Shown: positions 46,953-50,869 of the stretch, piece after piece | Layout of the letters: each line of letters opens with the position of its first letter | Position numbering within the stretch: position 1 is the stretch's first letter | Source of the DNA: Melioribacteraceae bacterium | Lineage (GTDB): Bacteria; Bacteroidota; Ignavibacteria; Ignavibacteriales; Melioribacteraceae | Length of the DNA: 64,000 nt | Reading direction: 5' to 3' | Assembly (NCBI GenBank): GCA_016927595.1 | Contig: JAFGMI010000021.1 | Coordinates: 1 to 64,000, forward strand | Notes under the pieces: generated by a model | What the model saw: only the letters and a program-made list of their open reading frames with translations | The model's database searches: none | Told to the model about the DNA's origin: nothing | Made by a program: the position numbers and the translations under genes

Positions 46953-47438
46953 ATGAAAAACATTTCTTCAGACGATCTTGATGAAATTAAGAGCGGTGTA
47001 TACCTTCTTGAAATTTTTGCTGAAAAACAATTTAAGATCAACGTGAAAAAGTTTAATAAAATTATATTCCCCGCAGGTTATTATTATTACGCAGGATCTG
47101 CTCAGAAAAGTCTGGACAAACGTATTAAAAGGCACTTCAGACAAGCTAAAAATTTACATTGGCACATTGATCATATAACGACAAAAAAAGAGATCCAAAT
47201 TCAATGCGTAATAATCTTTCCCGGCTATACTAAAGAAACCGAATCTCGCCTGGCAAATTCTTTAGAAGGAATAGCGGGTATAAAAATTACTGCACATGGA
47301 TTCGGAAACTCTGATACGAAAGATACCAAGACTCATCTGTTTCATTCAAAGCGCAGATTAAATCACAGCCATTTTTCAGACCGGTACCATTCAACCGTGC
47401 GTTTCATACCATCCTCCAGCGAAAATTCCGGAGTATAG
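46953..47438 (+). CDS. DUF123/GIY-YIG-like nuclease-fold protein
   Basis: SGVYLLEIFAEK...IIFPAGYYYYAGSAQKSLDKRIKRHFRQAKNLHWHIDHIT. Confidence 0.82.
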   Translation: MKNISSDDLDEIKSGVYLLEIFAEKQFKINVKKFNKIIFPAGYYYYAGSAQKSLDKRIKRHFRQAKNLHWHIDHITTKKEIQIQCVIIFPGYTKETESRLANSLEGIAGIKITAHGFGNSDTKDTKTHLFHSKRRLNHSHFSDRYHSTVRFIPSSSENSGV

Positions 47439-48355
47439 CCCAGTTCTTTTTCAGCCTTTGTTATATCGCACGTCCAGTACCTCTGCACAAAATCCCTTGC
47501 CTTTTCTATATTAAACGTTGCCGCTTTTGAACTGAATAATGAAAACAATTCTGCAAAAAACGCAACTGTATAGACTAAGAAATGAGGGAATCTGAGTGTA
47601 ACCGCTTTCTTGCCCATAGCTGCTGATATAGCTTTACTGATACGATGCCATGTATAATACTCTTTCGAACTGATAAAGTAAGTCTGCGATTCTGCATTTT
47701 CTTTTGTGGCTGCCAGGTACATACCGTTAGCAAGATCTTTTACATAAATTATACTTACTTTTTTTTCATCGAATCCCACCATAGTCATCAGTCCGTTTTT
47801 GTAGGTCTTAAGAACCAAATAAATTTCCGTATCACGTTCTCCGTAAACAGCAGGTGCTCTTATTATTGTGATTGGTATTTTATCCATAAAACTTTGTGCA
47901 AGTCTTTCCTGAGCTAATTTACTTTTGCCGTATCTGGTTATTGGTCGTGGTTCTGTCTCCTCATTATTGGCAAGATCTGATTTGCTTGGTCCCGATGCCG
48001 TTTGGCTGCTTACAATCAGCACTCTCTTAATACCCGGATTAACCTTCACAACTGTTCCGAGAAGATTTTTTGTAGTTTCAACATTACCTCTTAAATAGTC
48101 CTCGTTCCGTTTTGCTTTTACTACTCCAGCAATATGGAATAAATAATCCGCATCTTTGAGCACGTCTTCAAGCGCATGCGTATCAAAGAGTCCGCATTTA
48201 ATTATCTCCACAGGTTTATTTTCGAGCCATCTGAGATTACTGCTCTCCCTAACAATACATTTAACAATATGACCTTTCTCAATTAGGAGGTCTACCATAT
48301 GGCTTCCTACAAAACCGGAGCCGCCAGTTACAACAGATATAGTTTTACTTTCCAT
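47363..48355 (-). CDS. NAD(P)-dependent extended SDR epimerase/reductase (candidate ceramide-pathway reductase)
   Basis: VVTGGSGFVGSHMVDLLIEKGH, ITRYGKSKLAQERLA (YxxxK), IIRAPAVYGERD. Start at M27 of the track ORF (48355). Confidence 0.88.
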   Translation of the reverse strand: MESKTISVVTGGSGFVGSHMVDLLIEKGHIVKCIVRESSNLRWLENKPVEIIKCGLFDTHALEDVLKDADYLFHIAGVVKAKRNEDYLRGNVETTKNLLGTVVKVNPGIKRVLIVSSQTASGPSKSDLANNEETEPRPITRYGKSKLAQERLAQSFMDKIPITIIRAPAVYGERDTEIYLVLKTYKNGLMTMVGFDEKKVSIIYVKDLANGMYLAATKENAESQTYFISSKEYYTWHRISKAISAAMGKKAVTLRFPHFLVYTVAFFAELFSLFSSKAATFNIEKARDFVQRYWTCDITKAEKELGYTPEFSLEDGMKRTVEWYRSEKWL

Positions 48356-48483
48356 AAGATTATATAAATTATTGTTATGATTGATTTTATAGAGATTAAA
48401 TAATAATTTTGCCTGATTCTTATTTTTGAACAATCACAAAATAATAAAATTACCTCACTAAATTATAATTCCAGGAGGACTAA

Positions 48484-49674
48484 TTGGATTTATTCAAGAA
48501 GTGTTACGACTTTACACGAGCTGACGAAGTAAAAGCAATGGGAGTATATCCATACTTCAGAGCCATAGAGGAAAACGAAGGACCTGTTGTACAAATTGAA
48601 GGCAGAAAAATTGTAATGGCAGGATCAAATAATTACCTTGGATTAACAGCCCATCCAAAAGTTAAAGAAGCAGCTATAAAGGCAGTTGAAAAATACGGTA
48701 CTGGTTGTTCGGGCTCTCGATACCTTACCGGTACGCTGGATCTTCATATAGAACTTGAAGAAAAACTTGCTAAATTTTTCAATAAGGAAGCGGTAATGCT
48801 TTACAGCACTGGCTATCAGACTGCACAGGGAATTATTCCCACCTTAGTTCAGCGTGGCGAATACGTTGTTTCGGATAAAGATAATCACGCCTGTATTGTT
48901 GCAGGAAATTTGATGGCAAGAGGTGCTACCGCCGATGTCCTTCGGTACAAACATGCCGACATGAAGGATTTGGAAAGAGTTATCAGCAAGGTAGATAAAG
49001 ATATCCCTAAATTAATAGTGAGCGACGGCGTTTTCAGTACAGGAGGTGAAATTGTTGATTTACCCGAACTGGTTAAACTTGCCAAAGAATATAATGCAAA
49101 AATTTTAATAGATGATGCACATGCCGTTGGTGTAATCGGTAAAGGCGGCAGGGGTACTGCAAGTGAATTCGATCTTGAAGATCAAGTAGATATGACAATG
49201 GGTACTTTCAGCAAGACCTTTGCTTCACTAGGCGGTTTCGTGGCAGCCGAAGCAAAAGTAATAGATTATCTCAAACACCACTCACCTGCACTGATATTCA
49301 GCGCATCACCTACACCTGCATCAGTTGCCGCTGCACTGGCAGCTTTAGAGATATTAGAAGCAGAACCCTGGAGAGTAGATAAATTAGTAAGTAATGCCGA
49401 CAGAGTACGAAAAGCCTTAACCGAAGCAGGATTCACGGTAATAGATGGAAGAACCGGAATTGTTCCCGTAATTGTAGGTGATGACGGACTTGCATTTCAA
49501 ATGTGGCGCAAGCTTTTTGATGCCGGTGTTTTCGTTAATGTATTTATTTCTCCCGGTGTGCCTCAGGGCAGACAAATGATGCGTACAAGTTACATGGCTA
49601 CACATGAAGATGAACATCTTGATTATATAGTGAATACATTCATTAAAGTCGGGCAGGAACTGGGGTTGGTCTAA
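48484..49674 (+). CDS. spt: PLP-dependent alpha-oxoamine synthase, serine palmitoyltransferase-like
   Basis: [99 protein letters not shown] with TTG start. Confidence 0.88.
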
Positions 49675-49696
49675 TTTATGAAATAAATATTATTTT

Positions 49697-49731
49697 AAAG
49701 CATACTGATATTTATTGGTATGCTTTTTTTT
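49697..49731 (+). terminator. Terminator-like hairpin after the SPT gene
   Basis: AAAGCATAC-tgatatttattg-GTATGCTTT + TTTTT; overlaps the spurious upstream start (49715) of the next ORF. Confidence 0.8.
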
Positions 49732-49750
49732 ATTTAATACGGAGCAGTTC

Positions 49751-50869
49751 ATGGATAATGTAGTTATAAAATCTATTGCTAATTCGCAAAGAAAAAAATT
49801 TTTGAAACTTGCTTTTGAAATATACTCCAACGATCCCTACTGGGTTCCGCCTTTATTTTCCGATAAGATGAAAGTACTCAGCAGGGAAAAAAATCCTTTC
49901 TTCCATGAAAATGATCTTGAATTGTTTATCGCTTACAAAAACGGCAAACCAGCCGGAAGAATCGCTGCAATAGAAAATAAACTTCACAACAAAATTCATA
50001 AAGAAAACATCGGATTCATAGGATTTTTTGAATCAGTAAATGATCAGGAAGTTGCCGATAAATTGTTCGACGCTGCTGCTGGCTGGATGAAGCGAAAAGG
50101 CTTCGATTCGATGCGCGGACCTACCAATCCAACAAGCAACGATGAATACGGATTACTTGTTGACGGTTTTAATGATTCACCCAGAATAATGATGAGCTAT
50201 AATCCGAAGTATTATGTTAACTTATTCGAGAATTACGGGTTTACGAAAGCCAAGGATCTTTATGCTTATCATATTCAGAACCAGGAAATGCTGAAGAATG
50301 AAAAGATTAAACGCGTTGCTGAAATTGTAAGAGACCGGTATAAATTGAACATCCGTTCTGTAGATATGAAAAATTTTAAAAAAGAGCTTGGCCTTTTCAA
50401 GTATGTATATAACAAAACATGGGCGCCGAACTGGGGATTTATTCCCATGTCCGATGAAGAGATTGATGCAGCAGCATCTGATCTGAAACCGTTAATAGAT
50501 CCTAACCTCGTCCTCTTCGGTGAAATCAGCGGTGAAATTATTGCAACTGCTCTTGTGCTGCCCGATTATAATGAAATATTCAAATCATTCAGAGGCAGAT
50601 TATTCCCCTTCAACTTTATCAGGATATTTACAAAGAATAAAGATATTACATGGGCGCGTGTAATAGCACTCGGTGTATTGCCTGAATACCAGAAGAAAGG
50701 CATTGACGGTGCGCTTTATTACGATATTTTAAAACGTGCCGCCGAACGTGGAATTATGAGAGGCGAAGCAAGCTGGATACTGGAAGACAACGAAATGATG
50801 AATCGCGGTGCAATAACTATGAACGGTAATATTTATAAAAAATACAGAATATATCAAAAAGCAATCTAG
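49751..50869 (+). CDS. GNAT/YghO-like N-acyltransferase (candidate bacterial ceramide synthase)
   Basis: YSNDPYWVPPLFSDKMKVLSREKNPFFHENDLELFIAYKNGKPAGRIAAIEN, MRGPTNPTSNDEYGLLVDGF, ARVIALGVLPEYQKKGIDGALYYDI; start at ATG 49751 after GGAGCAG. Confidence 0.8.
   Translation: MDNVVIKSIANSQRKKFLKLAFEIYSNDPYWVPPLFSDKMKVLSREKNPFFHENDLELFIAYKNGKPAGRIAAIENKLHNKIHKENIGFIGFFESVNDQEVADKLFDAAAGWMKRKGFDSMRGPTNPTSNDEYGLLVDGFNDSPRIMMSYNPKYYVNLFENYGFTKAKDLYAYHIQNQEMLKNEKIKRVAEIVRDRYKLNIRSVDMKNFKKELGLFKYVYNKTWAPNWGFIPMSDEEIDAAASDLKPLIDPNLVLFGEISGEIIATALVLPDYNEIFKSFRGRLFPFNFIRIFTKNKDITWARVIALGVLPEYQKKGIDGALYYDILKRAAERGIMRGEASWILEDNEMMNRGAITMNGNIYKKYRIYQKAI

Follow-up and report, generated by a model that had tools for sequence, protein, structure and literature searches.

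Organization and conservation of the locus

Three genes for a predicted lipid pathway lie side by side in the window, the 64,000-nucleotide stretch of Melioribacteraceae bacterium DNA that we analyzed. They encode an extended-SDR reductase, an alpha-oxoamine synthase (AOS), and an N-acyltransferase (Table 1). We confirmed the three open reading frames at the coordinates that the initial annotation had given. As it had proposed, they are real genes that sit together with the SDR gene divergent. We found this layout to be conserved across relatives. Chance can be excluded as the origin of the open reading frames because they are conserved in these relatives.

Table 1. Features of the three-gene locus (positions in the window)
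Feature	Coordinates	Strand	Remarks
Extended-SDR reductase, CerR/Epi-like	47363..48355	minus	330 aa; Pfam Epimerase, 114 bits
Divergent intergenic region	48356..48483	.	128 nt between SDR and synthase genes
Alpha-oxoamine synthase (AOS), serine palmitoyltransferase-like	48484..49674	plus	396 aa; TTG start
Terminator-like hairpin and T-run, spt/cerS-like spacer	49697..49726	plus	13-pair stem
Tandem-GNAT N-acyltransferase, YghO/bacterial ceramide synthase-like	49751..50869	plus	372 aa; ATG start

The SDR and synthase genes are divergently oriented and 128 nt apart, and the acyltransferase gene follows the synthase gene on the same strand after a gap of 76 nt. The TTG start of the synthase is preceded by the ribosome-binding site AGGAGG at 48473-48478, and the ATG of the acyltransferase is preceded by GGAG. 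The divergent region presumably holds both promoters as well as the AGGAGG of spt; promoter prediction in 48356..48483 gave nothing above chance. At the other end of the SDR gene, its 3' end is overlapped, tail to tail, by the 3' end of a gene for a DUF123 protein (46953-47438).

We found homologs of each of the three genes in 94 to 95 of 97 genomes of the same order. The full divergent trio was intact on one contig in 83 of the 97, with 99 to 293 nt between the SDR and synthase genes. In most of the remaining 14, the trio was broken across contigs or truncated where a contig ended. Three genomes (G006, G013, and G020) were without the trio; some of these gave paralog matches only, and G020 retains synthase fragments. 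Identities in the relatives were 73 to 87% for full-length synthases, about 49 to 69% for the acyltransferases, and 47 to 70% for the SDRs. We also followed the 43 named loci (L071-L113) whose acyltransferase was at least 50% identical. The synthase gene lay directly upstream of the acyltransferase gene in all 43, and the SDR gene was present in 40, two of the three exceptions being at contig ends.

The AOS and GNAT pair, usually with the SDR, also occurs in Calditrichota, Saprospiraceae, Nitrospirota, Sumerlaeota, Planctomycetota, Rubrobacter, and Streptomyces. On a plasmid of Streptomyces NBC_01001 (L065:4769-9295), the order is synthase-GNAT-SDR, followed by a condensation-domain gene, and on a Rubrobacter plasmid (L064) the same trio precedes an LTA-synthase-family gene. 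A Calditrichia contig (L140) encodes a synthase that is 78% identical to that of the window and falls inside the Ignavibacteria clade. Its acyltransferase is only 43% identical and groups with Calditrichota; this mismatch may reflect either a binning error or the exchange of genes within the trio.

The three predicted enzymes

The best-scoring profile for the synthase was NF047600 (NCBIfam, Bacteroidota SPT) at 491 bits, followed by KBL at 375 bits and BioF at 363 bits, all below their cut-offs. The 149 bits by which it missed the 640-bit cut-off of NF047600 refer to the naming threshold of one model and not to a biochemical criterion. The best solved structure was that of the Sphingobacterium SPT (PDB 3a2b; 381 bits). 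In a 97-sequence tree, the synthase fell in a starred clade (97) with the SPTs of Bacteroidota and proteobacteria, and KBL, CFAT, BioF, and other oxoamine synthases fell outside it. A 52-sequence tree with bootstraps gave the same SPT clade with support of 96/92. The window synthase group is sister to the clades of verified SPTs and not inside them. At 47 positions diagnostic for SPT versus KBL, the window synthase agrees with SPT at 27 and with KBL at 6. The active-site residues D210, H213, and GTFSK244, which carries the PLP lysine, line up without variation with those of other SPT-type enzymes. We concluded from its sequence that the synthase is most likely a serine palmitoyltransferase, which is how the initial annotation had read it.

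No other clear oxoamine synthase was found in the window genome. In related DNA, contig G012:C4 of the same family (L194:4005-5198) encodes a second SPT-like synthase, with 48 to 49% identity and 527 bits to the SPT model, that groups with Calditrichota-type trio synthases. Further oxoamine synthases of 418 to 435 aa (L195, L197, L216, and L217) share about 35 to 38% identity with that of the window and fall outside the SPT, KBL, BioF, and CFAT clades.

For the acyltransferase, ACYLTRANSFERASE (49751..50869), database searches show only a weak GNAT domain (PF00583, 36 bits). Its AlphaFold model has a pLDDT of 92.3, and the best PDB folds are tandem GNATs. Its alignment with E. coli YghO covers 98% of the length at 32% identity. 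In the acyltransferase tree, it grouped with the other trio acyltransferases and with the YghO-type proteins of E. coli, Rahnella, Sphingomonas, and Diaphorobacter, and Prevotella-type paralogs were set apart with support of 95/83. This bears out the earlier assignment as a GNAT/YghO-like N-acyltransferase. The protein is most likely a YghO/bacterial ceramide synthase-like enzyme and is predicted to N-acylate a sphingoid base. It is not the sole candidate for this step, since a second YghO-like paralog is encoded elsewhere in the genome (G000:C17:18139-19236; L193:6122-7246), with 26 to 27% identity. This paralog is present in many relatives. We consider it less likely to be the bacterial ceramide synthase (bCerS) because its gene adjoins glycosyltransferase/polysaccharide genes and the protein groups with a Prevotella protein.

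The TGxxGFVG motif, S117, and Y142xxxK146 of the reductase are invariant across 28 trio SDRs, and its AlphaFold model (pLDDT, 93.4) has an extended-SDR fold. We built a tree with 17 other SDRs, all sampled from the order. The trio SDRs grouped with the ceramide-locus SDRs of E. coli, Rahnella, and Sphingomonas (97/94), apart from 13 of the paralogs; the 4 others fell on the side of the trio. The grouping with E. coli- and Sphingomonas-type reductases agrees with the prior reading of the SDR as a ceramide-locus reductase. An HpnA-type sugar epimerase was rejected, with a score of 132 bits against a cut-off of 368. We propose that the SDR is a CerR/Epi-like enzyme that would reduce the 3-keto group of a sphingoid base or of a 3-keto-ceramide. 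Caulobacter CerR has been reported to be periplasmic (PMC11087976); no signal peptide was visible by eye in the window SDR.

The spt-acyltransferase spacer and acyl supply

The spacer hairpin, which the initial annotation had not noted, has the consensus GCATACY...RGTATGC with a T-run and is conserved across Ignavibacteria. A strict search of homologous spacers of 45 nt or more (n = 46) found it in 27, compared with a mean of 0.07 in shuffled spacers. This search superseded an earlier loose terminator scan, which 276 of 500 shuffles also matched. The stem shows paired changes among relatives, which lean towards structure as the hairpins had been selected by pairing. The genome contains the motif just twice. 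The hairpin ends 24 nt before the acyltransferase ATG, a distance that would be too short for a promoter, and we infer that the hairpin lowers expression of the acyltransferase relative to spt.

At 15 other loci, only 1 to 29 nt separate spt from the acyltransferase gene. The gaps of 1 to 18 nt in some relatives suggest that the two genes are cotranscribed there; cerS has been said to lie always in an operon other than that of spt (PMC11324152). The spacer hairpin is the one feature of the locus for which we found no description in the literature.

No gene for AcpR or an acyl-ACP synthetase (AasR), a dedicated pair that the rhodobacterial ceramide gene set has near spt, was found in the locus. 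Elsewhere in the genome, genes for an MBOAT protein, an acyl carrier protein, and an acyl-AMP ligase lie in a row (G000:C22:136000-152500; L263). We rejected this cluster as a co-conserved partner in the role of the missing AcpR/AasR because its ligase turned up in just 29 of 58 relatives and travels with the MBOAT gene. Among the relatives, there was no dedicated AcpR/AasR pair that was co-conserved with the trio. The presence of the ligase in just half of the relatives points to acyl-CoA or housekeeping acyl-ACP as the probable acyl donor.

Predicted pathway, alternative readings, and known ceramide loci

Taken together, these data make it likely that the trio serves a free-living Ignavibacteria bacterium in the synthesis of dihydroceramide, the backbone of sphingolipids. 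This assignment draws on homology to the counterparts in known ceramide loci, on invariant catalytic motifs, and on near-universal co-conservation. In the predicted pathway, the PLP enzyme would form 3-keto-sphinganine by condensation of serine and a long-chain acyl thioester. The tandem-GNAT protein would acylate the amine, which attaches a second chain, and the divergent SDR would use NAD(P)H to reduce the 3-keto group, so that dihydroceramide results. We infer the amino acid, the acyl donor, and the order of acylation and reduction. The initial annotation had also proposed a ceramide locus in which the three activities are packed together, and each enzyme does group with its ceramide-locus counterparts.

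A synthase of the KBL or BioF type that adjoins an unrelated SDR and GNAT by chance is extremely unlikely. Such a synthase would fit the substantial scores to both models and the fact that the window AOS is the only clear one in the genome. However, true KBLs from the same order reach 673 to 675 bits against the KBL model and fall in a clade of their own. AU tests rejected trees in which the window group was held with KBL (P = 0.003) or with BioF (P = 0.025); these P values, and the one for CFAT below, are indicative, as the groups had been named after a first tree. The lack of a Thr-dehydrogenase or biotin gene nearby, from which the initial annotation had argued, extends to the whole genome, where profile searches found no KBL, BioF, BioB, or Tdh over the cut-off. 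Linkage of the synthase gene to the acyltransferase gene is also near-universal. On the basis of the tree, the AU test, and genome content, we rejected a KBL/BioF identity.

The steps of sulfonolipid synthesis parallel those of ceramide synthesis (PMC11211663), and the synthase could in principle be a cysteate fatty acyltransferase (CFAT), with the trio making capnine-type lipids. The AU test left the union with CFAT standing (P = 0.076). In contrast, the real CFATs, recognized by a 719-bit match to PDB 28eh, form their own clade with 100/100 support and without the window synthase, which agrees with SPT at 25 and with CFAT at 4 of the positions diagnostic for these two. The tree and the residues disfavor a CFAT, and we regard the sulfonolipid pathway as very unlikely. 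It is also unlikely that the same trio makes 1-deoxy- or related N-acyl amino-ketone/alcohol lipids with a synthase that uses alanine or glycine. The separation of the window clade from the verified SPTs would be consistent with this, as would the trio homologs in actinobacteria and the abundance of 1-deoxyceramides in anoxic water with Bacteroidota (PMC11334938). However, the synthase keeps the SPT residue at most positions diagnostic for SPT versus KBL or CFAT, and we found no positive evidence for a different amino acid. A further, rather unlikely idea is that the Ignavibacteria-type synthase is SPT-like but distinct in function (e.g., alanine-using or dependent on housekeeping acyl-ACP) and that the hairpin serves as a built-in dial for how much long-chain base stays free relative to ceramide.

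The dihydroceramide reading places the trio beside several known systems. In E. coli BL21, yghO-aasR-epi-acpR-spt is the dihydroceramide gene set (PMC9386255). The AOS, YghO, and SDR of a locus of this type, seen in E. coli PN43 (L069), are homologous to the window proteins and group with them in trees. However, identities are only 34, 32, and 23% for the AOS, the YghO acyltransferase, and the SDR, respectively, the window is without a dedicated AcpR or acyl-ACP synthetase, and the gene order differs. Spt, bCerS, and CerR have been described in Caulobacter (PMC11087976, PMC11324152), and we expect the same three activities here, a likeness drawn from the published descriptions. In Caulobacter crescentus, cerS lies in a separate operon, whereas the cerS-like gene of the window follows 76 nt after spt; many relatives of the window have the hairpin in this spacer, and in others the gap is as short as 1 nt. 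The SPTs of Bacteroidales and Sphingobacterium (3a2b; P. distasonis and B. finegoldii) belong to the same AOS clade, with 44 to 48% identity. Bacteroides spt stands alone beside a diacylglycerol-kinase gene, whereas the window spt lies in the trio and in a sister clade.

Plasmid pAUEa of Aureispira anguillae (L063) has an identical arrangement of a divergent SDR gene and an AOS-GNAT pair, with identities of 42% (SDR), 64% (AOS), and 42% (GNAT). Unlike that of the window, this locus belongs to Saprospiraceae and is plasmid-borne. The "Clade B" Spt-like proteins, which lie outside the classical SPT clades in many phyla, also have colocated bCerS-like and CerR-like genes (PMC11334938); we liken the window trio to them by this description of gene colocation and not by sequence placement.

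spt, bCerS, and cerR are often clustered, and producers have been predicted in 38 phyla (PMC11334938). Ignavibacter is stated to have the genetic potential, and ceramide lipids are reported to correlate with Ignavibacteria (PMC10667739). The clustering and the potential of Ignavibacterium are thus already published, and the trio extends a known pathway; we found no literature on ceramide in Melioribacter. For the order as a whole, whose members are environmental bacteria, sphingolipid synthesis becomes a near-universal prediction. The prediction comes with a single compact, divergent locus that is open to cloning and testing, and the conserved spacer hairpin offers a way to test how the two acylation steps are regulated. 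The trio may also serve as a marker for sphingolipid makers in which the SPT model of NCBI stays silent.
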